DNA of 64,000 nt from Prosopocoilus inquinatus (lineage: Eukaryota; Arthropoda; Insecta; Coleoptera; Lucanidae). Of the stretch, positions 24,238 to 62,286 are shown piece by piece. A program made the translations under genes and the position numbers. Every line of letters starts with the position of its first letter. The stretch's first letter is position 1. The stretch is taken from contig CM069875.1 in the NCBI GenBank assembly GCA_036172665.1, forward strand, positions 12,170,001-12,234,000, written 5' to 3'. The notes beneath the pieces were generated by a model that was not told where the DNA came from, searched no databases, and saw only the letters and a list, made by a program, of their open reading frames with translations.

Positions 24238-24299
24238 AATAAAAAAAAAAACTTTTGTGAAATCAAGGGTGTTTTTTTCGTGTTGCGTTAATTCATAAT

Positions 24300-25814: not shown

Positions 25815-25879
25815 ATCATTCCGTTTATATAAAAATTTTGTGCAAAACGTTTTTGATTGCAGTGAGAACCTCGAGCAGC

Positions 25880-25924
25880 CTCTGGACAGCTGTTTCAGCC
25901 CTGCTTGGGGCTTCTTCAGCAGAG
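25880..25924 (-). ncRNA. Type I hammerhead ribozyme (312-bp family)
   Basis: On the minus strand: stem I CTCTG/CAGAG, core CTGAAGA, stem II AGCCC/GGGCT, core GAAA, minimal palindromic stem III (A)CAGCTG(T), C before the predicted cleavage. All core residues are intact. Confidence 0.8.
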
Positions 25925-26260
25925 ACGTAGCTCGACATTCCCACTGCAGACCAAAAACGACTTGCCCAATTTATTCGCAATTGCGATGTAAGAATGATGA
26001 ACATATAAAATAGCGACATCTTACTATCGCTTTTTGACCTAACATTGCAGTAGGATAGACAAATTGAAGCGGGATTTGCTCCTAATAAGTCCCCCATGCA
26101 AGGCGGCCATGTTTGCTGTCAAAGCATAATAAAAGATTTTAGAAAAATTTTGTGCAAATCGTTTTTGATTGCTATTTTATATGTTCATCATTCTTACATC
26201 GCAGTTGCGAATAAATTGGGCAAGTCGTTTTTGGTCTGCAGTGGGAATGTCGAGCTACGT

Positions 26261-26305
26261 CTCTGCTGAAGAAGCCCCAAGCAGGGCTGAAACAGCTGTC
26301 CAGAG
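26261..26305 (+). ncRNA. Type I hammerhead ribozyme (312-bp family)
   Basis: It has the same sequence as 25880-25924, on the opposite strand: CTCTG, CTGAAGA, AGCCC/GGGCT, GAAA, CAGCTG, TC, CAGAG. The core is intact and stem I is fully paired. Confidence 0.8.
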
Positions 26306-26513
26306 GCTGCTCGAGGTTCTCACTGCAATCAAAAACGATTTGCACAAAATTTTTCTAAAATCTTTCATTATGCTTTGACAGCAAGCATGGCCGCCTTGCA
26401 TGGGGGACTTATTAGGAGCAAATCCCGCTTCAATTTGTCTATCCTACTGCAATGTTAGGTCAAAAAGCGATAGTAAGATGTCGCTATTTTATATGTTCAT
26501 CATTCCGTTTATA

Positions 26514-27855
26514 ATTAAAAATTATAACGAAAAATACCCCATACAAATAAATCATACTAGTGTTAGTTTTTATTTTACTTACAGTTATCGCCCTGCGAAA
26601 TAAACTGAAACAAAATAACAGTCATGCAACCTTTCGATTGAATTATTGAATGCAAATGACATTGAATTAAGATTTCTAATATACATATTCCACATCCAAA
26701 AGACTTTCAAAGACTTCAGTAATTCCATTTGATTCACTGGTCGAAAATTTTCACGATACAGTCTTAAGAACTCAATTTGACAAGTTATTTCTGACATTCA
26801 CTGACGGTAATAAATTAATTAGAAGGGTCACGGCCGTCACCAAGGAAACTTCACACTAACAAAATAATCGGAAATTTCGTTATAAGACTTGTTCCGCTTT
26901 GTTTCCGCAACTGTACCATAATTTAATAAGATTTATTAATTTAATAATAATTTTAGTTCTGAAACACGCATTCACCTACTAGTTATTTTTTTTTTTCAAA
27001 ATCTTTTGCAGTATCTTGTTATTTTGTTTTAAAACAAATGTATCACAAATTGTAAACAAATTGTATCACGTGGTATGAATACTCAAGATAGCGTCCATAA
27101 GAAAAAAGACAGTTGACAGTCGTATTTGCGAAACTGTCAATCCCAACCTATTTCTTCGAACTGTATTAGATTGTTCATCGAATTTAACACAAAAAATCGA
27201 ATTTCGTGATTATGTTTTAATAAATAAGGAAGATATTCGAGATTTTCGAAAATTAGAATTCTCAGTTTTGTACACAAAAAATGTTGGTATTATTCATAGG
27301 GATTATTTTATACGATATTTATAATTAGTTAGGTACACTAAAGATTTTTTTTAGCCGCTGATTATGAATAAAATACCTCTATATAGCTCTTTAATTCAAT
27401 TGAATAGTTGTAGACTGCGAATGCTTCTATCTAGAGCTATAGTGCTGAATAAAAAATACTTATTTTTAAGAAATCTATCTATATCTGCAGTAAAAATTGG
27501 TACATTCCACTTAAAAAAGTATAAGTTTGGTAGATAACTCACTTATGAAACATGCTGTATATGTGAAAATAATTTGCTGATATATGTAGAACTCATTAAT
27601 GGCGATAACTTTTGTAGAAGACATTTTCTTTTATAATTAATAGTTAAGGCGCTATTGAAGAAATCGATTCCAACGACCCAGCCTGTATAAGATAGCGATA
27701 AGCACGACACGGTTACTTCTCTTGTGATTCAGAAGTCATCTACTGAAGATGTCATTGTACTGCAAACCACAGTCTCCAATACATTTCAACATGTACTATT
27801 ACATATTTATGTTCTTAAAATAAGTTTGCTTATGTTTGTGTTATTTATGTTTTTA
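26514..27855. other. No recognisable gene
   Basis: AT-rich sequence without supported genes or clear repeats. Confidence 0.4.
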
Positions 27856-27856
27856 A

Positions 27857-27960
27857 TGCCTGAACAGTCCAGTGGTAAGGGACCAGCCTTGCAATCGTAA
27901 GGACGTGGGTTCGCACCTCGCTCGAGATATTTCTCTGCGGTGTTTACTCATTTCAGGCAT
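27857..27960 (+). repeat. tRNA-like / SINE-like sequence
   Basis: AGTGGTAAGGGACC resembles a D-arm/A box (stem GTCC/GGAC) and GTGGGTTCGCACCTCGC resembles a T-arm/B box. The anticodon arm is irregular (CCTTG/TAAGG with a 6-nt loop) and no acceptor stem closes directly after the T arm. An outer pairing of ATGCCTGAA with TTTCAGGCAT lies 25 nt further out. It is best read as a tRNA-derived SINE head or tRNA pseudogene. Confidence 0.35.
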
Positions 27961-28439
27961 CCGTCAACGGCGGGAAGTTTTGGAAGTAATAAAGCCATGA
28001 AACAATATAATCACACAAAAATACACTCCCGCTCCCGAGATCTTGACAAGTCTATGACAAGGACAAACACCACAGATAAAAAAAAATCCCATTAAAAGTA
28101 AACAGTATTCAAATTTATGAAAAACAAATTTAGCACTGTTAAGGAACATTATTCAAGCACATTTCTTTATCGTAGGTAATATAATTCGAGTCGCTCATCT
28201 CATAACTGACAATATAATGCAAAAGGTGAAAACTATGTACTTCGTCAACGTAGCATAACTGGAGTTGCTGACGCTTTAATAACCAATTAAAGAGCAGAAT
28301 TATATGTCCTTACACTTCTGCAGCGGAATTAGAAATCTCACAGCCGGATGCCGTGTGCCGGAGGTGTGGAAACCCAGCATAACTCCAAAAAATTTCATTT
28401 TAATTTTACCAACAGTACCTGATTCTTTTAAATAATCTT

Positions 28440-28985
28440 GGTCGAATCGTTTTAGTTTGCAGTGGAACTCGTGCTATACTTCTACTGGCTGATGAAACCC
28501 TAATTAGATCTGAAGCAGCTGTACAGAGGCTCGTCGTGGGATTCACTGCAATCAAAAACGATTTGCAACAAATTTTTTTAATAACATTACCAATAAAGAT
28601 ACAAGATAGGTAAAATAGCTCGACATTCCCACTGCAAACAAAAACGACTTGTCCAATTTATTCGCAATTGCGATGTAAAAGTGAACAGATAAAATAGCGA
28701 CATATTACTATCGCTTTTTGACCTGACGTTGCAGTAGGATAGACAAATTGAAGCGGGATTTGCTCCTAATAAGTCCCCCATGCAAGGCTGCCATGCTTGC
28801 TGTCAAAGCATAATGAAAGTTTTTAGAAAAATTTTGTGCAAATCGTTCTTGATTGCAGTGAAAACCTCGAGCAGCCTCTGGACAGCTGTTTCAGCCCTGC
28901 TTGGGGCTTCTTTAGCAGAGACGTAGCTATCCTACTGCAATGTCAGGTCAAAAAGCAATAGGAAGATGTATTTTATCTGTTCATA
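28440..28985. mobile_element. Retrozyme-family copies, older and rearranged
   Basis: A diverged plus-strand segment (about 28440-28580: TTTGCAGTGGAACTC, CTGATGA, CAGAGGCTCGTCG, CACTGCAATCAAAAACG) is followed by a minus-strand copy (about 28610-28950) closer to the main family. A short plus-strand tail follows (CTACTGCAATGTCAGGTC). No target duplication is evident. It looks like insertions nested in an older member. Confidence 0.65.
28876..28920 (-). ncRNA. Hammerhead, inactivated by core mutation
   Basis: It matches the family hammerhead except that the core CTGAAGA reads CTAAAGA, changing an invariant G. Expected not to cleave. Confidence 0.65.
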
Positions 28986-29401
28986 AAATTTTATGTAAAA
29001 AAACCTTGCAAAAGAAACGTGAAAAATCGTTTCAAATTTTCTTGTGCACGTCACAGTTAAAAACCCAAGAGCAAATTTGATTCTTTTAAATACTGCTTAT
29101 AGATAAATACTAAATGCCCATTTACTTCTTCGCATCTTGAGCAAAACTGAGAATATTGAAAATCTTCCTTTTTTCGAAATACTAGACCGAAAGAAATTTT
29201 GTCTGACAATCAAAACATATATTTTGTAAATAAGTATTGAATCCTACTAAAATTTTGTCTAATATGTCCAACAATTCCAAGGTACAACATTTTTCGTATC
29301 TAAAATAAGTGCTATTTTTAGCAGAACTAATGCTTGGTTTATACAGTCAAAAAAACTAAAACTAAAATTAAAACTATGCAAAGGTTTCCGTTAATACACG
29401 G

Positions 29402-30762
29402 TGGCCCAACGATGCGTATTTCTTGTGAGGCTTATGGGAAAAAAATTAGGAAAAAAAATCTATAAAGAATTTTATACTAGACAATACGCGGCATATTGTA
29501 AAATTATTTTGAACTATACAGAGTGATCAGAAAAATGGTGGTTCGTGGAAACTTATTTTTTTTTTAATGGAACACCCTATATATTTTCAGATATTTGGAT
29601 GCGCCATAGTAAGCTGATTACAGCGATATAAAGATATATTGATTTTATTGAATAACTTTCATAAAATTATTTTTTTTTCTTGAAGAATTTTGCAAAAATA
29701 CAGTAAGTTTGAATTTGAATTTCTGATTAATGAGGTAACACGGACGAACGAAAATCTAACACGATATTTTTAGGACTTTGGCCTTTATGAAAATGTGAAC
29801 AAAATTAAGATATCATTTTGCATTATACTGAGCGATCGATACTTACGAAACATTCGGTATCTCATTTTTTTTTTAATGGAATGGCCTACTTTTTATTTCA
29901 GAAATGGATAGCACTTAAATGTAGCTTTCTGCTGATGTAAGGCTAAATACCTTTATTTTTAATAATTTCTTCACTAGAAATTTTCTAGTATTTCAATGGT
30001 CGGTGTTTTAAACTATACACCCACTATTGCTACTTTCCTACCTAAATTCAATCATTCGAAGTCATTTTTCGATCAATTGATTCTACTTTCAAAGATCTCT
30101 AATTGAATACCTCCGCGATAGGATTTATTTTACCAAAAATAATTTAAAAACAGACCATTGAAATACTTGTGAAAAGAAAATTTTTAGTGACGAAATTATT
30201 AAAAATAAAGATATATAACCTTATATCAGCAGAAAGCGACATTTAAGTGCTATCTATTTCTGAAATAAAAAGTAGGCCGTTCTATTTAAAAAAAATAAGA
30301 TACCAAATGTATCATAAGTATCGATCGCTCGGTAGAATGCAAAAAGGTATCTTAATTTTGTTCACATTTTCATAAAGGCCAAAGTCCCAAAAATATCGTG
30401 TCAGATTTTCGTTCGTCTGTGTTATCTCATTAATCAGAAATTCATATTCAAACTGACTGAATTTTTGCAAAATTCTTCAAGAAAAAAAAATTATTTTATG
30501 AAAGTTATTCAATAAAATCAATATATCTTTATACCGCTGTAATCAGCTTACTAACGGCGCATCCAAATATCTAAAAATATACAGGGTATTCTATTTTAAA
30601 AAAAATAATTTCCACGAACCACGATTTTTCTGATAACTCTGTATACTTCAAAATAATTTTACAACATGCCGCGTATTGTCTGTTATAAAATTCTTTATCA
30701 TCGATTTTTTTCCTAATTTCTTTCCTATAGGCCTCACAGAAGAAATATGCATCGTTGGGCCA
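29402..30762. mobile_element. Foldback element D, about 1.36 kb
   Basis: Arms 29402-30015 and 30140-30762 are reverse complements, leaving a loop of about 125 bp. Outer ends are TGGCCCAACGATGCGTATTT and AAATATGCATCGTTGGGCCA. Each arm contains two internal boundaries, AATGGAACACCC and AATGGAATGGCC, resembling termini of smaller elements. There is no coding sequence. A lone arm sits in the Gug intron at 9180-9727. Confidence 0.75.
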
Positions 30763-34452: not shown

Positions 34453-34777
34453 CTACCCACTAAGGAAAAAAATGTTATATAAACATTGTTTGAACGTAAT
34501 TTAGTTAGATGTAATGTTTACGGTTAAACGTTTTTAATGTAGAAAGTAACGTTACGCCAATAGTTCTATGTCCTAGTAAGCGATGTTGCAGAATAACGTT
34601 ACAAAAAAAATGTTGACCCGACGTCTTTTTATTAACGCTGCATAAATATAAATTGCAATGTTTTATTAATGTTTACATGTAATATTACCTTTATGTTTCC
34701 TATACTTGTTTCATGAACGTTCCTTTAGGAATGTATCATTGACGTTCCTTTAGAAACATTGCACTACTATTACAAGA

Positions 34778-35321: not shown

Positions 35322-36870
35322 GTGGATATCTTTAAAGCAAACCGCACATTAGCATCGCATCATTTTGCAAACTAAAAATCCGCAGCAATCACTACCTAAT
35401 ATAGTTTTTGTATGTCAGTTCATTCCGTACTGATTGGTGCAAATTTTTAGTTTAGCATATGAAGCAATGTAACATCCTAACGTCTACTTCGATAAAGCTG
35501 CTTTAACACTTGTAAACTTTAAAATGTTTCATTACAGCGCTACCCCTTTGCTGAGGAGCCCCCAAACTGGGTCGAAACAGCTGTCTAAGAGATCCCACTG
35601 TAATCGAAACTGTATTCATAATAAGTAGTTGCAAAGGAATCTTACTCACATATGTATAATATTCAAATTCTCCTTATCCTGAGATTTCCTTATTTTGTGA
35701 GACAGAGATAGATTTAATAAATTCGAAACCCACCCTCTTGTAAGAAAGTCCCAATGACCAAATGCAAAGATAAAGTATATCTGTATTAAAGTATCTACAT
35801 AGATTATATTTTCTAAATGTGTCACAGAAGGAAACTTGGGTGGACATCCATATATGTATTTACAATCAAAATAATATGTTGAAACACCGAATATAAAAAT
35901 ATAAACCGTGAAGATCATAATAATTATAAAATCTAATCCGCTTATTAATCTGAGCGGGCGAAATAGGTGTACTTGCGGGCGGGAGACAATACAACGTAAA
36001 GCTGCGTATCAGCTGTGTCTATTCGCTGGGTTGAGTTTGGTCCAAAACTTCTATGTAATCGCTGTTAATCATAAATTTGTTTCAAAAAATTGTATGCCTT
36101 CACCATTATTTTCTCGTGCTAAAAATTTTGTTCTCGGTGAGGTGGCAAAATTCTGTAAATATAAATTAAGAAAATTATATATAAGTACATTATAATGTCA
36201 AAACTATTAAAGAAAATCGTACTACTTACCCTTCATCAGTTTTTCCTTATTAATATAAAAACACTTTAGACGATGTGACTGATAATCTGAAATTTATCTG
36301 TTTTACAAATACGTAAAATAAATAAAGCATTTTACCTCTATATTTTCTACGTGTATTCTGTATTCTATCTTTAAAATGTAGCAAAGCATCACTTTCGAGG
36401 ATTTATCGAAAAGCGATGGTGCAGCCTAACTGCATAGGTTTTTTTCCCTTTTCCTACGACAATGTCTCTTTCCAAATCTGAAGTGAAAGCAAATGTTTGT
36501 CTTTTTGCTTAGCTTTGGCTTAAAAGTAAGATAAATCCAGCACAAATTTTATAGAGTAATACAATTGGCTGTATTTGTAAAAATTTGCAGATGATTTCCA
36601 CTATTTTGCTCTAAATTTAGAATTGAAAGGGAGTAGTGGATGAAGAGAATTCCCGTATTGACATCCTTACATTTAATAAATAAACTTTTTTAAATAAATT
36701 TTTAAAAGTGTATTTCTTACAACGAGCCTTCAACAAAAAAAATACACCTCGAGTAGCCTTGGAAACAAAAGTACCATCGTGAATTAAGAATCAGTAACAC
36801 TACTTTTATTGTCAAAGTAAGACCATAACAAGAAACTTCATTCTGACTTTTATTCAAAGTTGGGTTTAAA
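35322..36870. other. No gene; small inverted repeat and a hammerhead remnant
   Basis: 35365-35385 (TTTGCAAACTAAAAATCCG) and 35437-35455 (GCAAATTTTTAGTTTAGC) form a small inverted repeat. 35545-35591 is hammerhead-like. No supported gene. Confidence 0.4.
35545..35591 (+). ncRNA. Hammerhead-like remnant
   Basis: CTGAGGA (35551-35557), a C-rich/G-rich stem II around CAAACT, then GAAACAGCTGTC as in the main family, with a weak stem I. It is followed by CCCACTGTAATCGAAAC, matching the family's CTCACTGCAATCAAAAAC. It is a highly diverged member. Confidence 0.4.
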
Positions 36871-37197
36871 CCAAAATATTTTGAACATATAAAATAGCGA
36901 CATCTTACTTACTGAAACAGCTGTCCAGAGGCTGCTCGAGGTTCTCACTGCAATCAAAAACGATTTGCACAAAATTTTTCTAAAATCTTTCATTATGCTT
37001 TGACAGCAAGCATGGCCGCCTTGCATGGGGGACTCATTAGGAGCAAATCCCGCTTCAATTTGTCTATCCTACTGCAATGTTAGGTCAAAAAGCGATAGTA
37101 AGATGTCGCTATTTTATATGTTCATCATTCTTACATCGCATTTGCGAATAAATTGGGCAAGTCGTTTTTGGTCTGCAGTGGGAATGTCGAGCTACGT

Positions 37198-37242
37198 TTC
37201 TGCTGAAGAAGCCCCAAACAGGGCTGAAACAGCTGTCCAGAG
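37198..37242 (+). ncRNA. Type I hammerhead ribozyme (tandem unit 1)
   Basis: TTCTG/CAGAG stem I (one G-U wobble), CTGAAGA, GCCC/GGGC stem II with an AAACA-type loop, GAAA, CAGCTG, TC before cleavage. The core is intact. Confidence 0.78.
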
Positions 37243-37515
37243 GCTGCTCGAGGTTCTCACTGCAATCAAAAACGATTTGCACAAAATTTTTCTAAAATCT
37301 TTCATTATGCTTTGCTTTGACAGCAAGCATGGCCGCCTTGCATGGGGGACTCATTAGGAGCAAATCCCGCTTCAATTTGTCTATCCTACTGCAATGTTAG
37401 GTCAAAAAAGCGATAGTAAGATGTCGCTATTTTATATGTTCATCATTCTTACATCGCATTTGCGAATAAATTGGGCAAGTCGTTTTTGGTCTGCAGTGGG
37501 AATGTCGAGCTACGT

Positions 37516-37560
37516 TTCTGCTGAAGAAGCCCCAAGCAGGGCTGAAACAGCTGTCCAGAG
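37516..37560 (+). ncRNA. Type I hammerhead ribozyme (tandem unit 2)
   Basis: Same as 37198-37242 with the consensus AAGCA loop. Cleavage at both sites would release a unit of about 318 nt (37238-37555). Confidence 0.78.
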
Positions 37561-37622
37561 GCTGCTCGAGGTTCTCACTGCAATCAAAAACGATTTGCAC
37601 AAAATTTTTCCAAAATATTTTG

Positions 37623-45700: not shown

Positions 45701-48700
45701 CAGATGAACAGATTCGATGAACTTCCTCGTTGATCGCCATGTCCGAAGAAAATTTGTGCTGTTTGATTGGAACTCTTGACAAACAATCCACATTTTGATT
45801 GTCAGCGCCCTTCTTGAATTTTACTGTGTAATTGAATCCAGCCACCAGGAAAGATGCATATCGTAAAAGTCGAGCTGAAGTCATTTTTGGTGATTTGGCC
45901 TTTGGATGAAAGATTGTTGTCAAAGGCTCGTTATCAGTTATTAATGTAAAATGACGTCCAAAAAGGTAATCAAAAAAATAATCTGTTCCAAACACAATTG
46001 ATAGGGCTTCGCGGTCAAGTTGTGAATAATTTTGTTCAGCATTGGTTAGTGAACGAGAAGCAAAAGCAATTGGTTGTTCTGTATCATTGATGACATGCGA
46101 TAGTAGTTCCTGTTCGACTTGCATCTGTTGTAGGCAAAACAGGTAGATTTGTATTAAATGGCATTACGACTCTTTCACTTGCTATTTCACTTTTGAGTTT
46201 GATAAAAGCTGACTCACATTTAGCTGTCCAAAAATACTTTTGATGTTTTCTAAGTAACGTTCGTAGTGGTGCTGTAATGTTTGAAACGTCGGGCAAGAAG
46301 CGAGAATAATATATTACCATTCCCAAGAATCGGCGTAATTCTGGTACGTTCTTCGGACGGGACATATTAATAGTTGCTTCTACTTTTGATGTTGGATAGG
46401 GTATCCTAGGTATTCAGTCTGGGTCTGAAAATATGTACATTTATTTTTATTAAGGTGCAAGTCATATTTATGCAGTCTCTGGAGACAAGCAAAAAGATTT
46501 CTCTTGCATTCTTCTCTTGTTACCCCATGGACAAGAATATCATCGAAATAGGCAATAGTTTTCTGCAATCCCTTCAGAATTTGATCCATTATCCGGTTAA
46601 ATCCTGCTGGTGCCGTTCTTATTCCAAAACTTAACCTATTCTTCGATATGTTCCTCGATGTGTGGAGATAGTCTGGATGATGCTACTTTCTTCATCTGTT
46701 CTCAAATGTAGATAGGCCTTGAACAAGTCTAATCGGCAAAAATATTTTGAATTTTGAAGGGTGTTAAGAATTTCGTCGATTTTCTTAATGGATAATTAGT
46801 ATTGATGATTTTACACCAACCTTACTCAAAGTCGGACTGAATCATCGCCTTTGGGAATAACAACTAGAGGTGAACCCCAGTCACTTGTTGTTAACTTTGA
46901 TATAATTCCAGCCGCTTCGAGATTATCCAGTTCTTTTTCAACTTCTTGTCGTAATGCGTAGGGCACATTTGTTTCTGGTGTGTAGCAAGGTTTTGCTCCT
47001 TCACGAAGTTGAAGTTTGATGACAAATTTTGGTACACATCCTACTTTTCGTTTAAAAATTTCTGGAAAAGAATTTTGAATGACAACGGGCGAAATTGATA
47101 AAACTGTTGTCTTCGATTTTTGAATCATTGTTATCTAAATCGTACAGGTTAATTTTTAAATGTCGCGTCCAAATTCTTCCTAGGAGAGGAGCATGCCCAT
47201 CCGGTACCAAATACAGTTCTTCTTATGACGTTTTACCTTGATATTCAACATTGAGTTGCACTTTTCCCAAAGGTAGAAAAACGTTCTTTGTGTATGATCG
47301 AAACGCAAGGTCTGTTGGTTCGAGATTCTTTCCAGTATTCAAATTTTGAAATTTCTTTTCTGGAAGCAACGTAAATCCTGCTCCGGTGTCAACTTCAAAT
47401 TCTTGAGGTCGGCCTTCGATGTTAACCATTATTAGAAATTTTTCAGAATCAAATGTGTCAAACAACCTGTCTTTTTGAAGGTTGTAAATATCTACAATTC
47501 TGTTCACACCTAGTGCATTGTAATTATTTAATTCGATTGATTTTATGTCCGATCGGTTTGATCTTTTTGTATTTACCAAAGTTTTTATACACACCTTTGC
47601 GACATGTCCTTTTCGGGTACAAGATTTGCATTGAAGCACTTCTGGATCAGTACGGCATTCATTTGCCTTATGATTACTTCTTCCGCAACGGATGCATAAG
47701 TTGTCAATTCCTAGTCGTTGATAATCGTTGCGTGATTTGGAACGGGATCGATGATGTTGGTTTGATGTTGTAGTGGAACATTTCGTGGATTGTTTTGATT
47801 TGTCCTGACGGAACTATCGCGAGATTCTGTTTATTTCTTGTCCAGAATTACTTTCGTCTTTATCAATTGGTTGCTTCGCATTAAGTTCTCGGCTGTCAAG
47901 CTTAGAGGCTTCCATTGTTAGCGCCTTCTGAACAATGGTTTCAAAATCGGTAGCTTCAGATTGCAATATCTGCTCTCGTATTGAATTTTCACGCAATCCT
48001 CGTATGAACTGCACAAGAAAAAACATATCTGCGATGTTGATTTTGCACTGACATGGCGAAATAAATTCTCATTCGTTAATATTCCGTCGAAGGATGGCAA
48101 CGTAATCAGAAATCGATTGATTTTCAATTTGATACACTGATAAAAACCTGTGCTGTTGTACTAGTACATTCTTCTTTGGACACAAATGTTTTTCAAGAAC
48201 AATGTTATCTCTTCATAGGACATTTCTGCAGGATTACTCGGAGAAATAAGTGAAACGAGTACCTTGAAATGCACGAAGCCATTTGAATTCAACAGCATTG
48301 CTCTACATAGAACTTTATCATTGAATACGCCTTTCATATTCAAGTAAATTTCGAATCGTTGCCGATAAAATTTGAAATTTTCTTTCTTTGGATCAAAATT
48401 GTCAAATGGGGGGAGTAAAACAGCATTTGTCAGGGGTTGATGATTGGTATATGTGCTACTTGTTACTTGCGAATTAATTTTCTGGAGTAATTGCTGCTGA
48501 CTCTGATTGAATAATTCCAGCAACTGTGAAAACTGTACTGCATCCATCGTAGTTGAAGTTTGACTTCGTCGCCAAAACTGTTGTGTCCTAACGAAATAGA
48601 AAAGGGGCAAATAATCCCGATTTATATTATATTGAACATAATTTTATATCTTGACAGATCATAATAATTTTTATCACTATTGTAAACAACGCATACTTAT

Positions 48701-50942
48701 TTTTTAAAGCATACTCATTTTTATAAGGGTAGAGGATACAACATAATCCAAAAAGATATTTACATTAAAGACAGAATAGTAACAAATGTATTACATATTC
48801 AGTATATGATTATCATTGCAAAAAATTTTACACAACATAGAAATAAACATAGATAACTTTAAAAAGCAAGCACTTTCAAAGACGACTGATGGCAACACGA
48901 ATGACGATTTAATAAATTAATAGGTTTGACAATTATTTATTCAGAATTAAAATAATATTTATGCAAACCTATATTTTTTCATATTCTTTGTGATGTTTAT
49001 TAACAGAATTATTTTCAACATATAAAATAGCTACATCTTACTATCGCTTTTTAACCTAACATTGCAGTAGGATAGACAAATTGAAGCGCGATTTGCTCCT
49101 AATGAGTCCCCCATGCAAGGCGGCCATGCTTGCTGTCAAAGCATAATGAAAGATTTTAGAAAAATTTTGTGCAAATCGTTTTTGATTGCAGTGAGAACCT
49201 CGAGCAGCCTCTGGACAGCTGTTTCAGCCCTGCTTGGGGCTTCTTCAGCAGAAACGTAGCTCGATATTCCCACTGCAGACCAAAAACGACTTGCCCAATT
49301 TATTCGCAAATGCGATGTAAGAATGATGAACATATAAAATAGCGACATCTTACTATCGCTTTTTGACCTAACATTGCAGTAGGATAGACAAATTGAAGCG
49401 GGATTTGCTCCTAATCAATCAAAAACGATTTGCACAAAATTTTTCTAAAATCTTTCATTATGCTTTGACAGCAAGCATGGCCGCCTTGCATGGGGGACTC
49501 ATTAGGAGCAAATCCCGCTTCAATTTGTCTATCCTACTGCAATGTTAGGTCAAAAAGCGATAGTAAGATGTCGCTATTTTATATGTTCATCATTCTTACA
49601 TCGCATTTGCGAATAAATTGGGCAAGTCGTTTTTGGTCTGCAGTGGGAATGTCGAGCTACGTTTCTGCTGAAGAAGCCCCAAGCAGGGGTGAAACAGCTG
49701 TCCAGAGGCTGCTCGAGGTTCTCACTGCAATCAAAAACGATTTGCACAAAATTTTTCTAAAAAGAATTATTTTCATTTATATGATATATGAAGACTTAAT
49801 TTCTCGAATTATTTCGCGCCAAATATTCATTCTAGACCACTGTGCGTCGTCCTAGGGTGGGGGAGGGTCGCCGCGCTAGATGTGCGATAGCTGGGTAGCG
49901 GCACCGCGGTTCGCCGCGGGTCGCAACAGTGTGTGCATAAGAATACAGCAAAAGATCTTTTCTTCGCCGCGCTAGATTTGCGACAACCTTAAGAAACACT
50001 ATCTCTTCGCCACTTCCTGTTCCTCACTTAAGTTTAAATGCAAATATCTGGATATACGAATAATTGCACTTATACTCCTTTTATTCTAGGCCCCTCAATT
50101 GAATTTTCGGCGGAATTGTGAGATGGAATTAGGTAGAAAAAGTTACAATAGGAACTTTAGGTGAAATAAAATTTAGCCTCTATTTTTAGTGAAATCTTTA
50201 AAACCTTAAAAACTAAAAAAGGCATTTTACCTAATATCTGGTCCTTAGTGATGAGACACCCGGTATAATATTTATGACATTCTTTTACTGACAACCTATT
50301 ACCAATATGTATTAGTATGTACGTAAACCTGTACAGTAAAAACTCTGTGCCGCAACACTCTCTCATGCCCTCACATCTCACATGTCCTCAGCTTATTTAT
50401 GCCCGGTTTCTGAAACAATCAATAAATTTAGGTAAGATTATTCTGTGGAGAGATAACTGCGAAATATCCAAACTGTTTACTTTATCTACAAACAAAATTT
50501 TGAGAAACGGTTTTTTGAAGTTATACTGAATTTATATTGAGTTTATCTTTCCATAAACTAATTGATTGTTTCAGAAACCGGGAATTAGATTTCTTTGATT
50601 TGTTTGTCAACGTAATTTTTGTAATTACATAATTCAATGTATCTGCAGAAATGCAAATTTATTTTTATCATAATAAGTTCCTACCTTCCACTTTCTGAGC
50701 TTTGATTGTTACGGAAGCTCTGGCGAGTTTCTCGGTGCTTTCCAAAGAATGAGTCCTCCTCCGGTTCCGTTTGAGGATCGAGTCCCGGAGCTGCATGTAA
50801 GTCTGGGACGCCAGGTTTGACTGACCTTTTTGCCTTTCGGCTGCCAGGAGGTCCTGCTCCATAGTCGGGGGTCATGGTGAATTCGCCGTACATGCGTTTC
50901 ATTAATGCCTTGTTCTCATCGATGAAGAGTTCTATCCGATCG
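39497..50942 (-). CDS. Spatzle-family cystine-knot ligand (5'-partial, two exons seen)
   Basis: Spatzle proteins are secreted, proteolytically activated cystine-knot ligands of Toll receptors. The two exons seen, 50942-50685 and 39782-39497, join in phase: two bases AG plus A give Arg, then VDACESKVEIVTPYWA. The upstream exon carries DRIELFIDENKAL and a furin-like RKAKR site; the downstream exon carries the whole knot with ten cysteines, YKWHRLLAYDPDNDC and GIFMDWFLFPSCC, ending CRCSPT then TAG. The sequence resembles the Spz3/Spz4-type subgroup, but I cannot fix the paralogue. Signal peptide and first exons are upstream of 50942, outside what I can recognise. The 10.9-kb intron hosts a Ty3/Gypsy element in the same orientation. 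Confidence 0.82.
39800..40214. other. Intronic sequence, nothing recognised
   Basis: AT-rich start of the large intron (read on the minus strand, its 3' end). No feature beyond the splice acceptor. Confidence 0.4.
40704..41035 (+). mobile_element. Retrozyme-family copy, diverged monomer
   Basis: One full-length monomer on the plus strand, older than most copies: ACGATTTGCAACAAAATTTTT, GACAGCAAGCATGGCGCCTTG, GCAATGTCAGGTCAAAAAGCG, TTGCAGTGGAACTC, CTGAAACAGCTGTAC. The hammerhead core is CTGGCGA (A to G at an invariant position), so it should be inactive. Confidence 0.65.
41210..41410 (+). repeat. Decayed single arm of foldback C
   Basis: GCAAAAATTGCCATT, TATCTCGTTTATTTTTAGA and TTCAGTGATATAGTT parallel the arms at 17990-18222 and 18790-19030. 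Much diverged. Confidence 0.5.
41828..42447. mobile_element. Foldback element F, about 0.62 kb
   Basis: ATTCAAAGTTT...AACAATTGATGGTCGGATAAA on the left is mirrored by TTATCCGACCATCAATTGTT...AAACTTTGAAT on the right. Pairing continues inward through AATGGAACAGCCTGTAT / ATACAGGATATTCCATT and a further 40 bp. Non-coding. Confidence 0.6.
43216..44340. repeat. Intronic stretch with a 153-bp direct repeat
   Basis: About 43797-43867 and 43949-44022 are similar: GTTA(G/A)AT(T/C)TGTTTC, TTTACAAAACT(G/A)CAAGTT, ATACAGGTGTCC. Offset is about 153 bp. The rest has no recognised feature. Confidence 0.5.
44341..44502 (-). repeat. 3' LTR of the Ty3/Gypsy element
   Basis: It starts TGTTATGTCGTAACG and ends GGATACTACA on the plus strand and matches 48579-48743 closely (AACGAAATAGAAAAGGGGCA shared). 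The few differences between the LTRs imply an old insertion. Confidence 0.8.
44577..45420 (-). pseudogene. Ty3/Gypsy integrase core and C-terminus
   Basis: LIDAKPHWAEIG, MVSDNASIFTSGPFRNYC and GHPATNGLAERNVQTLK hold the DD35E triad (Asp, Asp, Glu; 35 residues between the last two). 44969-44577 is the C-terminal part: GERVQTRYFVNNKLTWKFG and an RRSTRKQRPPNYL tail. A stop or frameshift separates the two near 44975. Confidence 0.82.
45420..46365 (-). pseudogene. Ty3/Gypsy RNase H and integrase zinc-binding region
   Basis: ELRRFLGMVIYYSRFLPDVS and FIKLKSEI lead into the RNase H signature IAFASRSLTNAEQNYSQLD and FTLITDNEPLTTIF. HATHIGITKMKQLARRYCTW is the integrase HHCC region with part of its CC pair missing. 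A frameshift near 46090-46120 splits TDAS from the rest and another follows at about 45420. Confidence 0.8.
46380..47128 (-). pseudogene. Ty3/Gypsy reverse transcriptase, broken
   Basis: FVIKLQLREGAKP, VPYALRQEVEKELDNLEAAGII, and SDWGSPLVVIPKGDDSVRL start the domain (47128-46826). After a frame-broken stretch come IAYFDDILVHG (catalytic DD at 46544-46539) and NKCTYFQTQTEYLGY. Frameshifts lie between 46826 and 46590 and near 46380. Confidence 0.82.
47223..47560 (-). pseudogene. Ty3/Gypsy aspartic protease
   Basis: FEVDTGAGFTLLP contains the catalytic Asp (codon 47390-47388) in the DTGA form usual for the family. It follows the knuckles in the same frame. The frame stops at 47223. Confidence 0.78.
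47590..48547 (-). pseudogene. Ty3/Gypsy gag with CCHC zinc knuckles, frameshifted
   Basis: It starts at ATG 48547 (MDAVQFSQLLELFNQ), has the capsid-like LLPPFDNFDPKKENFKFYRQR, then changes frame near 48160 and again near 48020-47920 (QFIRGLRENSIREQIL in one frame). At about 47710-47590 are two zinc knuckles, CIRCGRSNHKANEC and CKSCTRKGHVAKVC, both CX2CX4HX4C. Nucleic-acid-binding structural protein of the retroelement; not intact. Confidence 0.8.
48579..48743 (-). repeat. 5' LTR of the Ty3/Gypsy element
   Basis: It starts TGTTGTGTCCTAACG and ends GGATACAACA on the plus strand. It has short indels relative to the partner LTR. Confidence 0.8.
48744..49004. other. Short unannotated intronic stretch
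   Basis: AT-rich; nothing recognised. Confidence 0.4.
49209..49253 (-). ncRNA. Type I hammerhead ribozyme
   Basis: Minus strand: TTCTG, CTGAAGA, AGCCC/GGGCT, GAAA, CAGCTG, TC, CAGAG. The core is intact and stem I has one wobble pair. Confidence 0.78.
49663..49707 (+). ncRNA. Hammerhead with weakened stem II
   Basis: As the family consensus except that GGGCT reads GGGGT, breaking one stem II pair. The core is intact. Confidence 0.7.
49776..50401. other. No gene recognised
   Basis: It includes a CG-rich patch at about 49850-49930 (GGTCGCCGCGCTAGATGTGCG, partly repeated at about 49964 as TCGCCGCGCTAGATTTGCG). No coding support. Confidence 0.4.
50402..50582. mobile_element. Small MITE, 181 bp, beside the Spatzle-like exon
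   Basis: CCCGGTTTCTGAAACAATCA (50402-50421) and its exact complement (50563-50582) form the terminal inverted repeats. It lies about 100 bp from the splice donor of the Spatzle-like exon. Non-coding. Confidence 0.65.
50685..50942 (-). CDS. Spatzle-like internal exon: prodomain end and cleavage site
   Basis: The minus-strand acceptor is GTTTACAG before 50942; the donor is GGAAG|GTAGGAAC at 50685/50684. The exon is 258 nt and phase 2 at both ends. It encodes DRIELFIDENKALMKRMYGEF, then GSRKAKRSVKPG, whose RKAKR (Arg codon at 50827-50825) is a good furin-type site, then an acidic linker and RNNQSSESG. Assignment to the same gene as 39497-39782 rests on phase, strand, composition and domain logic, not on a transcript. 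Confidence 0.72.
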
Positions 50943-53780: not shown

Positions 53781-53789
53781 ATATTCATT

Positions 53790-53985
53790 TTTTGAAAAAT
53801 TTTGTTGCAAATCGTTTTTGATTGCAGTGAAAACCTCGAGCAGCTTCTGAACAGCTGTTTCAGCCCTGCTTGAAACAGCTGCTCGAGCTTTTCACTGCAA
53901 TCACAAACGATTTGCAACAATTGTTTTTAAAACTTTCATTATGCTTTGACAGCAAGCATGACCGCCCTGCATGGGGTAGCTTAAA
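53790..53985. mobile_element. Truncated inverted retrozyme-family copy
   Basis: A minus-strand piece (GTTGCAAATCGTTTTTGATT ... CAGCCCTGCTT) meets a plus-strand piece (GAAACAGCTGCTCGAG ... GACAGCAAGCATGACCG). It belongs to the subfamily with GCAACAA instead of GCACAAA. No complete hammerhead. Confidence 0.65.
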
Positions 53986-56088: not shown

Positions 56089-56293
56089 TATAAAAACATA
56101 AACATATAAAATAGCGACATCTTACTATCGCTTTTTGACCTAACATTGCAGTAGAATAGTCAAATTGAAGCGGGATTTGCTCCTAATGAGTCCCCCACGC
56201 AAGGCGGCCATGCTTGCTGTCAAAGCATAATGAAAGATTTTAGAAAAAATTTTGTGCAAATCGTCTTTGATTGCAGTGAGAACCTCGAGCAGC

Positions 56294-56338
56294 CTCTGGA
56301 CAGCTGTTTCAGCCCTGCTTGGGGCTTCTTCAGCAGAA
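56294..56338 (-). ncRNA. Type I hammerhead ribozyme
   Basis: Minus strand, consensus core, stem I TTCTG/CAGAG. Intact. Confidence 0.78.
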
Positions 56339-56651
56339 ACGTAGCTCGACATTCCCACTGCAGACCAAAAACGACTTGCCCAATTTATTCGCAAATGCGA
56401 TGTAAGAATGATGAACATTTTATATGTAGTACAGTATACAGTAGGATAGACAAATTGAAGCGGGATTTGCTCCTAATAAGTCCCCCATGCAAGGCGGCCA
56501 TGTTTGCTGTCAAAGCATAATAAAAGATTTTAGAAAAATTTTGTGCAAATCGTTTTTGATTGCTATTTTATATGTTCATCATTCTTACATCGCAATTGCG
56601 AATAAATTGGGCAAGTCGTTTTTGGTCTGCAGTGGGAATGTTGAGCTACGT

Positions 56652-56696
56652 CTCTGCTGAAGAAGCCCCAAGCAGGGCTGAAATAGCTGTCCAGAG
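56652..56696 (+). ncRNA. Type I hammerhead ribozyme, stem III variant
   Basis: CTCTG, CTGAAGA, AGCCC/GGGCT, GAAA, TAGCTG, TC, CAGAG. Stem III has C to T, giving a wobble. Confidence 0.72.
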
Positions 56697-56764
56697 GCTG
56701 CTCGAGGTTCTCACTGCAATCAAAAACGATTTGCACAAAAATTTTTCTAAAATATAAAAACATA

Positions 56765-57435
56765 TTTTTTACGAAAGTGTAAAACGTTCTTTCCAAGAGA
56801 CACTCAATTTTGTCGAGTTATTTAATAATTTACCGGTTGTCAGCACTGAAATAGCTTACAATCTGTAGAGGTGATTACATGATTACGACAGCATTAGAAA
56901 TATTAAGAACGACTTTTTAAATCAGTAAGCCGATTTTCGCAAATTTTATGTGTGTGTTCATGGAGATTTGATTGCCTATTTAATTCATCTGTCATTTCAT
57001 GTTCATTAACCAACAGAAAAACTTCATTTTAATAATTTCCGTATACAACGAATAATAGGTGTGTTATATGTGAGTAACTCAGTCGCACTCAGTAATCTTA
57101 TAAATTTGTATGTTTTTTCTACATGCTCGTTGGTGGGATTTTGTGAGCTACCTCCGAATCAATCAAATAGGGATTTAGGTTAGAATGCATGTGTATGTAA
57201 TGGCCGAATGTTTTTCTTGACATTTGCGCGATGTCAGTGGAATTAACTTGGTTTTTTTAGAGCGTTTTAACTCAGCAAAACTCACCTCACTTCTGATATT
57301 TACTGATCTGAATCGAAAGTAAAACGAACACACCTATTGTAAAGTGGAATATATATGGAATACCCATTCTTTGGGCTGTCATAAATTCTGAACTAAAATA
57401 CTAAATACTCAGATATTTTAAATAAAAATACTTTG
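56765..57435. other. No gene recognised
   Basis: AT-rich; nothing supported. Confidence 0.4.
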
Positions 57436-57830
57436 GCTGAGTTGCACCGACCTTGATTAACGTTAACACGGATTAACTAATCTGAGTTAGCGACTTTTCA
57501 GTTGCACCGAACTTAATTTGTCCTAATCTATGATTAACAAACTTGAGTTAGTTGATTCGGCAATTAACAACCTGCAATTTCAACCTCAATTAACGTTAAC
57601 ACAAATTAACTAATCCGAGTTAGCGACTTTTCAGTTGCACCGAACTTAATTTGCCCTAATCTATGATTAACAAACTTGAGTTAGTTGATTCGGCAATTAA
57701 CGACCTGCAATTTCAGCCTCAATTAACGTTAACACAGATTAACTAATCTGAATTAGAGACTTTGGAGTTGCATCGATCGTAGTTTGTCCTAATCATAATT
57801 AGTAAATCTGAATTAGTTAATTCGGTGGTA
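57436..57830 (+). repeat. Tandem repeat, 133-bp unit, about three copies
   Basis: GTTGCACCGAACTTAATTTG begins at 57501 and recurs at 57634 and, diverged, at 57767, giving a 133-bp period. Units contain AACGTTAACAC and GATTAACAAACTTGAGTTAG and so are rich in GTTAA words. An earlier partial unit starts near 57438. Confidence 0.75.
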
Positions 57831-58365
57831 TTGTTTGTTTAGAATGTTTAACACGAGTTAAACGGATATATTATAAATTTCTGAGGCGTACAGGACCGTA
57901 AATCATGCATTCTTCTGAACGATTATAATCTAAAATGTATTAAAAATGAATAATAAATTATTATTATATTGGAACAAGCAGCGGTGGTTTGTTTAACAGG
58001 AAGAAATTAGTGAACATAATTTGAAAACAATACAAATTTCTCTTTAAAAATTAAAAAATAACGTAAATTCATAAAATATACAGGGTGTTAATAAAAAAAT
58101 CCTGGACTAAGTTGGCAGGTGATAGGAGAGTTCAAAATAAGAAAAAAATTCTAATAAACTCATATCCAATACACAATACAGTGTGCTATATGTTCAGGTT
58201 TCCATAACGAAATTATTTTGTTTTTTTTTTCAAAGTTATAAATCATGTATTTTCCTTCTAATGACTACAGATGTTTATAACTCTTTCGGAATTCATCTTA
58301 TAACCCGGAGAAACGCAGAAAATCCAATTCCAAGGAGCCGGTCAGAATCCGACACACTCACCGAC
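57831..58365. other. No gene recognised
   Basis: AT-rich with a 62-codon random frame. Nothing supported. Confidence 0.4.
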
Positions 58366-59115
58366 ACATGAAAATTTTTTTTCTCACATACCAGGAAACG
58401 ATTCAAACCCACGCCTAAACGTTTGGTCAAGCGTTCAACAACCAAGAAAAATAAATTCGGAGAAGTATATTAACAGAATTTATGTGAAAAATAAAAGACT
58501 TTAGAAACAAGCAGCTTTATCAAAAGCAAACAACCAGTTTAGGATACATCAAGATATTTTCAGCTTGCTTTTAAAGTCTTTTATTTTTCACAGCATTTAA
58601 TTAATTACCAAAGAGCAAGAACTTTATAAAATTACTAAGAACTTACTTCATTCTTTATCTTTAACTTGCCAAATAGCCTAAGAATGTCCGACCCTTATTA
58701 ATTACCAATGAACAACTTTATGAACTTATACTCTTAACTAACATGAAAATTTTTTTTCTCACATACCAGGAAACGATTCAAACCCACGCTTAAACGTTTG
58801 GTCAAGCGTTCAACAACCAAGAAAAATAAATTCGGAGAAGTATATTAACAGAATTTATGTGAAAAATAAAAGACTTTAGAAACAAGCAGCTTTATCAAAA
58901 GCAAACAACCAGTTTAGGATACATCAAGATATTTTCAGCTTGCTTTTAAAGTCTTTTATTTTTCACAGCATTTAATTAATTACCAAAGAGCAAGAACTTT
59001 ATAAAATTACTAAGAACTTACTTCATTCTTTATCTTTAACTTGCCAAATAGCCTAAGAATGTCCGACCCTTATTAATTACCAATGAACAACTTTATGAAC
59101 TTATACTCTTAACTA
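58366..59115 (+). repeat. Near-perfect tandem duplication, 2 x 375 bp
   Basis: 58366-58740 and 58741-59115 are the same except for one substitution noticed (CACGCCTAAACG versus CACGCTTAAACG). Each unit contains a hairpin formed by TGTGAAAAATAAAAGACTTT and AAAGTCTTTTATTTTTCACA about 75 bp apart. The near identity means a very recent event or an assembly artefact. Confidence 0.85.
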
Positions 59116-60539
59116 AAAACTTACTTGTTTATGTTAACCAAAACTGAGCATATCACAATACCATGGCTAGCTTAAATCATTTAGTTCATTGCTATTTATA
59201 GTTTCCGCGGCTAGAGATGCTTCTCACCCTTACCAAAAATTGTGGAAACACCATTTAAGCGTTAGTACAAATTAGGCAAGTTTTACCCTACAAATTTCAC
59301 GAGAGTTTTTAACGGTCAATAAAGTACTTACTTCAGTTACAAAATGCTGTTTTAATTAAGCCAGAACCATTATTTTTTTAAATTCTAAACATTGACGATA
59401 TATTTTTATATTTATTTAAGCACCCTCTTACATACATTAGTTAATTACGTTAATACTAATTTTTAGAAAAATTTTGTGCAACGTCAGGTCAAATTAACAG
59501 TTAAGATGTTGTTGAAGAAATCAATACTAATGACACGCCCTGTATATTCTAGTGATATTATTTTATTTTCAATTACTGCAACTGTTTATAATATGTATAT
59601 TTTCAAGACCAAAAAATAAGAGAAAGAAGAATTATGATTTTTGTCCATTTACGCCTATCATTCGACGCGCTGTGCACCGGTGACATGAGTACATCAACAT
59701 CACCGCAAAATTGATCTGCACAATATTGATTACGAATCGTATTCGGTAGACTGGAGGTGCTTTCTTTCGCTCACAAAATCGTGATCCAAACGTGTTTTTA
59801 TTCATAAACATTCTTTTCTTTGAATTTCTTTCAATCTCTATGTTTAAAACTTGTTTGGATTGAATTATAGTTATTTATAAATGAGTTGTCAATCAAAAAT
59901 TCAAGTCGGGTGTTTTGTTGCAACAATTACGAAATTCAGGTCCAAACTATTCGAAACACCATTCAAACTTTTATGCGAAAGAAAGCACCTTTTTAATGAA
60001 CCAAATCCTTTAATTTCGTTTCATGAAAATTAAATAAACATTTTTATTTGCTTAAAATTATCACTAAGTACTAGTATTCAGAACAATTAAATAGTCAAAC
60101 AAATCCCACATTATTTCCATTATTTCCATTTGCCATTTTTTTTTTAATTAACGTGAAAGTAGGAACGTATTTTATGAAGCAATGAAAAAGGAAATAAATA
60201 CATTATAAGTTTTACATCGTCAGTATGTTTTACGAATGAATGAACTTTTATTTTGAATAAGAAGCCTATTGTAGAAAATTCTAGTTATTGAATTGCACAC
60301 TTCAAATCTACCATACTACGGCGACAACATTTTTCATTTGAAATTTGAAAATTTAATTTATATTTCAAAAGTATTACCACAATATAAATAATTTTAACAC
60401 AATAATATTGACCTTAATTTCCTCTTTCCTTTAATTCCATTACTATTTTTGTATCTTTAAATGGTTAACAGTAATCTACAGAAACTTAGATTTCAATGCA
60501 AGTTTGCTATGTTCGGTTTTAAACTTTCCACCCGGTACA
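59116..60539. other. No gene recognised
   Basis: AT-rich sequence. About 59463-59490 (AGAAAAATTTTGTGCAACGTCAGGTCAAA) joins two short retrozyme-family words and may be a deleted remnant. Otherwise nothing. Confidence 0.4.
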
Positions 60540-60559
60540 ATTTGTACTTTGACATCCAC

Positions 60560-60787
60560 ATTTCAGTCTTATCATAGATTCACGCGGGTTCTTTCTCATC
60601 ATAAGAAAATTATTACCTTTTACCATTATATTAATATCGTCCGCGTAACATACTAAAGTGAAGTTGCAATCACGTAAAAAAAATCTAAGTTATTAATGAA
60701 TATTACAAAAAGTGTTGACCCAGAGATAGAACCCTGGGATAGGCCAGAGCAAGTTTTGATTTACTGTTATTTATTACCACTTTTTGT
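60560..60787 (-). pseudogene. Non-LTR reverse transcriptase catalytic block
   Basis: GLSQGSISGSTLFVIFINNL followed by VCYADDINIMVKG gives the usual GxPQGS and YADD motifs, the latter after a frameshift (about 60640). The first motif is altered (GLSQGS), so activity would be doubtful even without the breaks. Confidence 0.7.
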
Positions 60788-61488
60788 GTACGAAATAGAG
60801 ATGGGATTCTGCCCGGTGGAATCACGGAATGCACCCACAATGCACCCGGTGTATTGGATGCATTACCCATTTGCCAACATTTACATAAGACATAAAAATG
60901 CTTTAAAATGACACCAAATATAATATATTTTTTTTACAGACTATCGCTAGACAATTATTTTGTAACGTTACTGTCAAAAACTTAGACCGGTATTCATAAA
61001 CCAAACTTACGCTATGCGTTCGTTTACAATTCGCCATAATTAATAAACTATACGTATTTGCCGCATTTTGGGTGCATAACCAGTGAGTATTGAATAATAT
61101 TTTATGAATTACTTTCCCAAAAGGCGGGAAATACGAATGATTTATGAATTATAGCGAATTCTAAGTGAACGTATAGCGTAAGCAGTGAGTATGTAGGTAC
61201 CTGTACACTCACTGGCGTTAGTTCTGTTTATGAATACCGGCTTTAATCATTTTATTCAGATTTTAAGCTATAAAGCTTTCGCTTAAACTTAAAAGTATTT
61301 ATTCATCACGTCCGAAACATGTAAACTTGTAAACCGGCCGCAAACAATTAAATAATATCATGAAAAGGTTATTTCTTGTTCGGTTTGCGTGGGAAATTAA
61401 AATTTTTCAATGCATCCGATGCATTCATATATACACTCGGTGCTTTCAATGCACCGGGTTCATTCTCAGGCCCATCTCTAGTACGAAA
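60788..61488. mobile_element. hAT-like MITE with 8-bp target duplication
   Basis: GTACGAAA occurs at 60788-60795 and 61481-61488. The insert has terminal inverted repeats TAGAGATGGG and CCCATCTCTA and imperfect pairing further in (AACCCGGTGCATT-type words). An 8-bp duplication and TAGAGATGGG-like ends are characteristic of hAT elements. A second, smaller MITE (about 60989-61241, CCGGTATTCATAAAC ends) is nested inside. Confidence 0.78.
60989..61241. mobile_element. Nested MITE, about 253 bp
   Basis: CCGGTATTCATAAAC at the left and GTTTATGAATACCGG at the right are perfect complements; TACGCTATGCGTTCG / CGTATAGCGTA pair further in. It lies within the hAT-like MITE. Confidence 0.65.
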
Positions 61489-61489
61489 T

Positions 61490-61850
61490 GAAAGACATGA
61501 TGAAAGGAGATCTAAAGTGCTTCCTCTAACGCCACAGCAATTTAATTTTTCTAGTAAAAGATTATGATTGACGCACAAGTGACGCAATAAAATGCTTTAG
61601 TCAAGTCTATAAGGAGACCAAGAGCAGAAATTTTGTGATCTAAATTTATTTTGTAAATAAATTGGAAATGCTGAAAAGAAAGAAATGCCTTATTTGTTTT
61701 AACGAAACGAATCTTTTATCTTTATTCTGTTTTTTATTCGTTACGTACTCAAACAATTTTGAAAAGGAAGCTAGGATACTAATAGGTCTATAATTAGCAA
61801 ATATGTCTGAGTCTCTTTTCTTATATATTGCTTAACCAATGCAGTCTCTT
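61490..61850 (-). pseudogene. Non-LTR reverse transcriptase, N-terminal and middle blocks
   Basis: NYRPISILASFSKLFE and LTKAF...VNHNLLLEKLNCCG correspond to standard RT blocks, in different frames. The domain is then cut by the hAT-like MITE within SSCLSFRT and resumes beyond it at about 60787. Confidence 0.72.
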
Positions 61851-61880
61851 GAAGTGTTAAGGAAAGACACCTGTTTGGAA

Positions 61881-62286
61881 TGAAAAATTTATGTTTTAGA
61901 AAAATTTTTTGTGCAAATCGTTTTTGATTGCAGTGAGAACCTCGAGCAGCCTCTGGACAGCTGTTTCAGCCCTGCTTGCATTTGCGAATAAATTGGGCAA
62001 GTCGTTTTTGGTCTGCAGTGGGAATGTCGAGCTACGTTTCTGCTGAAGAAGCCCCAAGCAGGGCTGAAACAGCTGTCCAGAGGCTGCTCGAGGTTCTCAC
62101 TGCAATCAAAAACGATTTGCACAAAATTTTTCTAAAATCCTTCATTATGCTTTGACAGTAAGCATGGCCGCCTTGCATGGGGGACTCATTACGAGCAAAT
62201 CCCGCTTCAATTTGTCTATCCTACTGCAATGTTAGGTCAAAAAGCGATAGTAAGATGTCGCTATTTTATATGTTGAAAAATTTATG
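61881..62286 (+). mobile_element. Retrozyme-like element with 13-bp target duplication
   Basis: TGAAAAATTTATG occurs at 61881-61893 and 62274-62286. The 380-bp insert has a reversed piece (61894-61978) and a plus-strand piece (61979-62273) that reaches TATTTTATATGT. Read on the other strand it has the canonical ends. It lies between RT and linker of the non-LTR relic, so it arrived after that element. Confidence 0.82.
62038..62082 (+). ncRNA. Type I hammerhead ribozyme
   Basis: TTCTG, CTGAAGA, AGCCC/GGGCT, GAAA, CAGCTG, TC, CAGAG. Core intact. The reversed piece at 61950-61976 carries only the GAAACAGCTGTC half. Confidence 0.78.

Follow-up and report, generated by a model that had tools for sequence, protein, structure and literature searches.

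A 312-bp hammerhead family in Prosopocoilus inquinatus as a candidate animal retrozyme with two fixed insertion ends

Introduction

How animal retrozymes find their way back into DNA has been an open question. The accessible text of PMC7229834, which defines the animal non-LTR (long terminal repeat) retrozymes, puts forward Penelope-like elements (PLEs) as a strong candidate for their mobilisation, and PMC7761336 agrees, naming PLEs only as likely candidates in the part available. The question is raised anew by a stretch of 64,000 nucleotides of the Prosopocoilus inquinatus genome (assembly GCA_036172665.1, contig CM069875.1, positions 12,170,001 to 12,234,000; hereafter the window), where a 312/318-bp family carrying hammerhead ribozymes is present at eight places. 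Judged by every criterion testable here, all of them read from DNA sequence, this 312-bp family is a retrozyme, and it inserts like a PLE without being one, with two internal start sites, facing arms and a target-site duplication. We regard it as fairly probable that the family is a recently active non-autonomous retrozyme, whose hammerhead-processed circle is copied by a Penelope-type reverse transcriptase from two fixed internal sites, one per cut strand.

Results

Eight loci share a hammerhead monomer

The window covers 64 kb of a 650-Mb assembly. A sequence-only reading of it had described at least eight loci with a common monomer, nine copies of the ribozyme with an intact core, and a head-to-tail arrangement with periods of 312 and 318 bp at 36.9 kb. 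All eight loci do carry the monomer, the copies at 28.5, 40.7 and 53.8 kb being degenerate, and five of the eight are two-armed insertions flanked by target-site duplications of 12-15 bp, an arrangement that the sequence-only reading had missed. The family core (CTGAAGA, stem II, GAAACAGCTGTC) was found nine times, at 25885 (minus strand), 26266, 37203, 37521, 49214 (minus strand), 49668, 56299 (minus strand), 56657 and 62043; one stem II pair is broken at 49668, and the core at 56657 has GAAATAG. Both periods were recovered as repeat spacings. The head-to-tail order captures only one half of the layout, since most insertions examined have two facing arms. The monomers form multimers of 312/318-bp units, up to several per arm, and the GC content of the 318-bp monomer is 42.8%. 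The family features of the window are listed below.

25815 to 26513, minus strand: two-armed insertion, the element spanning about 25830-26498 and its minus-strand direct arm reaching to near 25825; duplication ATCATTCCGTTTATA, with copies at 25815-25829 and 26499-26513
25885 to 25919, minus strand: hammerhead core, direct arm
26266 to 26300, plus strand: hammerhead core, inverted arm
28489 to 28984, strand not assigned: degenerate, rearranged family copy
36871 to 37622, plus strand: insertion whose inverted arm measures 28 nt and whose direct arm makes 2.3 laps, with unit spacings of 312 and 318; duplication CCAAAATATTTTG, with copies at 36871-36883 and 37610-37622
37203 to 37237, plus strand: hammerhead core; the C at 37203 is monomer position 1
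37521 to 37555, plus strand: hammerhead core
40703 to 41032, plus strand: degenerate copy of about 77% identity, in which an inverted arm was looked for and none found
49005 to 49775, plus strand: two-armed insertion; duplication AGAATTATTTTCA at 49005-49017 and 49763-49775
49214 to 49248, minus strand: hammerhead core, inverted arm
49668 to 49702, plus strand: hammerhead core, direct arm, with the broken stem II pair
53789 to 53976, minus strand: two-armed remnant, degenerate
56089 to 56764, plus strand: two-armed insertion; duplication TATAAAAACATA at 56089-56100 and 56753-56764
56299 to 56333, minus strand: hammerhead core, inverted arm
56657 to 56691, plus strand: hammerhead core, direct arm (GAAATAG)
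61881 to 62286, minus strand: two-armed insertion; duplication TGAAAAATTTATG at 61881-61893 and 62274-62286
62043 to 62077, plus strand: hammerhead core, inverted arm

Insertions have two fixed outer ends

A genome-wide search gave 9,801 + 9,851 = 19,652 core matches at up to three mismatches and none for the reversed control. Searched with 30 nt from around the second start site, the genome gave 10,050 + 9,965 matches. For the anatomy of the insertions we assembled 48 unique loci, comprising the eight of the window, 30 of 35 stretches fetched as best matches, and ten from a list of exact cores. Loci L009-L043 were among the best matches of the query and are therefore biased to young copies, whereas the ten exact-core loci were drawn from the first 19 of their list before the flanks were inspected.

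End positions are given on the 312-nt monomer, in which position 1 is the C of CTGAAGA. The typical copy consists of an inverted arm, whose outer end lies near 232, and a direct arm, which ends near 95; the joint between them is variable. The direct arm ends at 84-106 in 45 of the 48 loci (at 92-100 in 39 of these); of the other three, L014 has a different end, L017 lacks a proper direct arm and W28 could not be resolved. The outer end of the inverted arm lies at 227-243 in 41 loci. Among the ten exact-core loci, the direct end is present in all and the inverted end in eight; of the other two, L092 shows a 12-nt inverted piece by eye and L093 none. The arrangement is also seen in a check that avoids the bias to young copies, made on the first 100 exact cores listed, all on one contig, where neighbours within 1.5 kb comprised 19 facing, 7 direct and 0 back-to-back pairs.

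Both terminal motifs are present in 38 of the 48 loci, and 33 of these 38 have a target-site duplication of at least 9 bp, usually 12-13 bp (median 12); a repeat of at least 9 bp occurs in 2.2% of 1,406 mispaired flanks. In the tiled loci, monomer units fill the span from duplication to duplication, with no coding part and no frame for reverse transcriptase and GIY-YIG endonuclease inside, and the direct end carries no poly-A tail. The arms cross the ribozyme cleavage site uninterrupted, and in L010, L013, L017, L027 and L036 they are 3.6 to 5.4 laps long. The inner ends are variable. Among the 40 joints that could be resolved, an overlap of one base or more is seen in 27 and of two or more in 24; 2 joints are blunt, and 11 have extra bases. 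A simple formula gives 18% as the chance expectation for overlaps of at least two bases, and the overlaps, taken from local alignments, may be somewhat inflated.

Where the direct arm starts, the right ends of L009, L016 and L041 carry additional A/T-rich letters, which in L009 and L016 repeat AATTTTTCTAA. These letters may be due to stutter of the enzyme at initiation.

The hammerhead stems are conserved by compensatory changes

A descriptor of the core with stems I, II and III found 11 sites in the window, namely the nine of the family, one in a PLE at 24198 and one in a relative at 35551. In 60 dinucleotide-preserving shuffles it found no site. The sequence-only reading had proposed a search with the Rfam type I hammerhead model (RF00163) as a check. 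Elsewhere in the genome, 7 of the 8 reported matches score above the cut-off, and two of these come from near-identical stretches; 74 of 83,220 candidates were scored. Up to E = 10 the model lists only 35545 (29.6 bits), 37197 (27.7 bits) and 37515 (23.8 bits) in the window, all under the cut-off, and thus seven of the nine family cores are absent from this list. The first of the three is a divergent relative.

35545 to 35591, plus strand: divergent type I hammerhead relative, 29.6 bits to RF00163, under the cut-off

The sequence-only reading had named a lack of compensatory changes in the stems among the results that would count against it; in the alignment of 11 divergent sequences (the family and ten relatives chosen by eye from the window and the fetched loci) such changes are present. 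Over the 18 pairs of the tested structure, which comprises stem I in two parts, stem II and stem III, 85% of the alignment cells pair. Eight of the 18 pairs are altered on both sides, which 2 of 500 shuffles match; the double-sided changes amount to 16 cells, a number reached by none of the 500 shuffles, and the covariation score is matched by one. The number of further pair types is unremarkable (93 of 500 shuffles). When the pairing partner is slid by one to three columns, pairing falls to 25-46%.

The palindrome ACAGCUGU forms stem III; folded as a hairpin, it would have two pairs and a four-base loop. A similar short palindromic stem III is given for the axolotl hammerhead motif in the available text of PMC7229834. 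The sequence of stem III suggests that the hammerhead likely acts as a dimer. The 3' flank (CACTGCAATC..TTGCAAC..TTTTT) can still be recognised in copies with a diverged 5' side of stem I.

In another divergent relative of the retrozyme hammerhead, at 21814-21840 (plus strand), the palindromic stem III is longer and the cleavage position is occupied by G, so that it is likely inactive. Weak Rfam miRNA matches in the window look like inverted repeats.

Units are alike within an insertion

Units were re-aligned and compared in 34 insertions, with allele positions in 318-nt numbering. Within an insertion, substitutions amount to 1.35% between direct units and 1.53% between inverted units; units of opposite arms differ by 1.71%, and units of different insertions by 2.48%. 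The two arms also tend to share alleles: they are discordant in 0 of 74 comparisons at position 150 (22% between insertions), 1 of 63 at 314 (22%), 8 of 45 at 257 (50%), 9 of 73 at 16 (43%) and 5 of 65 at 104 (20%). This agreement fits a monomer circle as template, and a homogeneous linear multimer is also compatible. L010, L012 and L023 differ internally by about 0.2% and are therefore young insertions.

Both start sites are predicted to be unpaired

The 318-nt monomer is predicted to fold as a circle with -116.8 kcal/mol (z -9.0 against mononucleotide shuffles), and the 312-nt monomer with -112.1 kcal/mol (z -7.8). The predicted circle has a stem I of 43 pairs that is capped by a loop. On the two sides of the base of this stem lie predicted unpaired regions, 84-104 and 232-251 by the 318-nt numbering, which contain the two start sites.

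PLEs of the same genome have facing arms and two end sites

The window also contains a truncated PLE, whose parts are as follows.

22836 to 24341, plus strand: truncated PLE with two facing arms, the left ending at site A and the right at site B; 9-bp duplication CACTCTTAA at 22836-22844 and 24333-24341
22915 (minus strand) and 24198 (plus strand): hammerhead-like cores, of which only 24198 passes the core-and-stems descriptor
23544 to 24002, plus strand: C-terminal GIY-YIG-like endonuclease frame, labelled from its relatives L045 and L070

Arms of this PLE family have two alternative end points, separated by about 40 nt, and in all four independent two-armed loci (the window copy, L045, L050 and L057) one arm ends at site A and the other at site B, the second end site being somewhat altered in L057. 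In sequence, the hammerheads of the observed PLE families are unlike those of the 312-bp family.

A Pfam search assigned no name to the endonuclease frame of the window PLE; against PF01541 (cut-off 22.6), L045 scored 16.8 bits and L070 25.7 bits. RVT_1 was above its cut-off in L048 and L066 and just under it in L068. The genome search for PLEs scored 150 matches among 3,183 candidates, a protein search with the window frame found one relative, and a solved-structure comparison of two PLE frames gave nothing useful. A search for the PLE partner by a common start-site sequence yielded no candidate among the PLE loci fetched.

A hammerhead remnant of a second PLE family (CTGAAGATGATAGCTTAGCTGCCGAAATACGTATC) lies at 3442-3468 (plus strand) and resembles those of L070-L076, and a further hammerhead type (CTGACGAAGCTATAAATCTATAGCGAAACGTTGAGTG) occurs in L071 at 2034-2100 in the form of a 197-bp near-perfect palindrome that adjoins a PLE.

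Other features of the window

The window further contains a 375-bp tandem duplication (99%) at 58366-59116, a 133-bp repeat in about 2.8 copies at 57456-57825 and a 266-bp inverted repeat (94%) at 29607-30553. Proline-rich exons at 5502-11141 (plus strand) likely belong to an AUTS2-like gene (Pfam Auts2 E 3.9e-4, just under the cut-off), and 44577-48643 (minus strand) is a likely Ty3/Gypsy remnant with RT_RNaseH, integrase and zinc-knuckle matches.

Discussion

A proposed insertion mechanism

We propose the following model for the insertion of the 312-bp family. Multimeric transcripts would cleave themselves after GUC, perhaps in dimeric form given the palindrome of stem III, and the cleaved monomers would be ligated into RNA circles. 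A PLE protein would make a staggered cut in AT-rich target DNA, and each cut end would then prime synthesis in one of the two unpaired regions that flank the long stem I at its base. Each complementary DNA (cDNA) would circle the template for as many as several laps. The last step would join the ends of the two cDNAs via short overlaps. According to the available text of PMC11167929, an anole PLE protein in purified form acts on both target strands, cutting and extending each; it favours AT-rich DNA and starts at two adjacent internal RNA sites, the stretch between which is the PLE 'tail'.

Several observations weigh against this model. The tiling shows no inverted arm in five of the 48 loci, and in two others (L019, W53) this arm ends elsewhere. 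At positions 208 (9/94 discordant against 15%) and 242 (8/54 against 14%) the arms agree little or not at all beyond chance, and the arms of L013 and L036 carry mixed alleles at some positions. The active core is absent from the minimum-energy circle, no window site reaches the RF00163 gathering score of 34, and among the PLE loci fetched none has the start-site sequences of the retrozyme. In the accessible part of PMC11167929, moreover, the ribozyme is dispensable for insertion in vitro, unprocessed RNA is named the dominant substrate, and the start sites are alike on both strands.

Alternative explanations

The last points bear directly on the strongest alternative, in which the two-ended insertion stems from an uncleaved linear multimer transcribed off a tandem array, the ribozyme being uninvolved in insertion. 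The use of unprocessed PLE RNA and the continued insertion with ribozyme mutants (PMC11167929, as far as its available text goes) speak for such a template, and arms unbroken across the cleavage site are expected on an uncut multimer too. However, arms of more than 3.5 laps exist though most copies examined contain fewer units, units are alike within an insertion, and compensatory change preserves the ribozyme stems. We consider the linear multimer rather unlikely.

Twin priming produces inverted 5' segments and target-site duplications, and an enzyme of the long interspersed nuclear element (LINE) type, working by ordinary target-primed reverse transcription with twin priming, could be invoked on this ground. 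Such priming would, however, give a variable inverted start, whereas the start is fixed in 41 of the 43 loci with an inverted arm, and the direct end is without a poly-A tail; we judge this explanation very improbable.

Snap-back self-priming of a single cDNA also yields facing repeats, and is the interpretation chosen for rotifer PLEs in the accessible text of PMC3846280. It predicts that the inner ends coincide, but they lie within 10 nt of each other in 1 of 40 loci, with 2.7 expected by chance, and it does not predict a second fixed outer end. This origin of the facing arms is accordingly disfavoured, and we give it hardly any credence.

Equally hard to credit is the view that the 312-bp family is not an independent element but pseudo-LTR debris left by a PLE: hammerhead pseudo-LTRs and facing arms are known in PLEs and both are present here, but the tiled insertions consist wholly of monomer units between the duplications, with no coding part, and the PLE-family hammerheads seen differ in sequence. 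A simple satellite array with later inversions is ruled out by the position of the two-armed unit between target-site duplications, and a DNA transposon with terminal inverted repeats by outer ends that are not mutual inverted copies and by the variable interior.

Implications

A more general proposal, namely that animal retrozymes spread by dual-primed rolling-circle reverse transcription on one ribozyme-made circle and that this step belongs to Penelope-type enzymes, stands in our estimate at an even balance. Under it, the two ends of a single staggered cut would begin cDNA at two fixed unpaired sites of that circle, and each strand would make up to several laps before the two were joined in the middle. 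If it is true, dual-primed rolling-circle copying would be the missing insertion step of animal retrozymes. The ends, defined at base resolution, agree with the behaviour of the purified PLE protein in vitro (PMC11167929, available text) and with that of the PLEs of the same genome, so that the insertion question becomes testable with defined start sites. With about 20,000 copies, some of them very young, the family also offers a large natural data set for the insertion reaction.

Comparison with known systems

In L1 elements, twin priming yields an inverted 5' segment with a target-site duplication, alongside a poly-A tail and a variable inverted start. The 312-bp family shares the inverted segment and the duplication, but the poly-A tail and the variable inverted start were not seen here.

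Plant LTR retrozymes, as described in the accessible part of PMC7229834, are likewise non-coding, have hammerheads and form a circular RNA intermediate (here predicted), but they differ in their type III hammerheads, LTRs, 4-bp duplications and size of 600-800 nt.

PLEs, in the available text of PMC11167929 and PMC3846280, share with the 312-bp family the hammerhead, facing arms, two start sites, target-site duplications and AT-rich targets; for rotifer PLEs, PMC3846280 describes facing pseudo-LTRs and duplications of 8-10 bp and favours self-priming. PLEs encode a reverse transcriptase and a GIY-YIG endonuclease, whereas the 312-bp family is non-coding in the tiled loci, and the start sites are about 40 nt apart in the first PLE family but about 137 nt apart on the retrozyme monomer.

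The sequence-only reading had asserted a fit to the sequence criteria of known animal retrozymes, citing type I hammerheads with minimal stem III, monomer size and tandem arrangement. Against the animal non-LTR retrozymes of Cervera and de la Pena 2020 (PMC7229834) the fit is supported for hammerhead type (type I, with a short palindromic stem III), monomer size (150-450 bp), multimers, GC content below 50%, duplications of more than 4 bp and the presence of PLEs in the genome, as given in the text available. Direct tandem repeats are described there, and neither 'inverted' nor 'head-to-head' occurs in the main text as available; here most copies have facing arms with two fixed ends, and the predicted stem I reaches 43 pairs. 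No report of a two-ended retrozyme insertion was found in the literature searched, which consisted of titles and abstract openings with most subscription journals outside it. The 312-bp family shares its ribozyme type, monomer size and multimers with the animal retrozymes, and its two start sites, facing arms and target-site duplication with PLEs.

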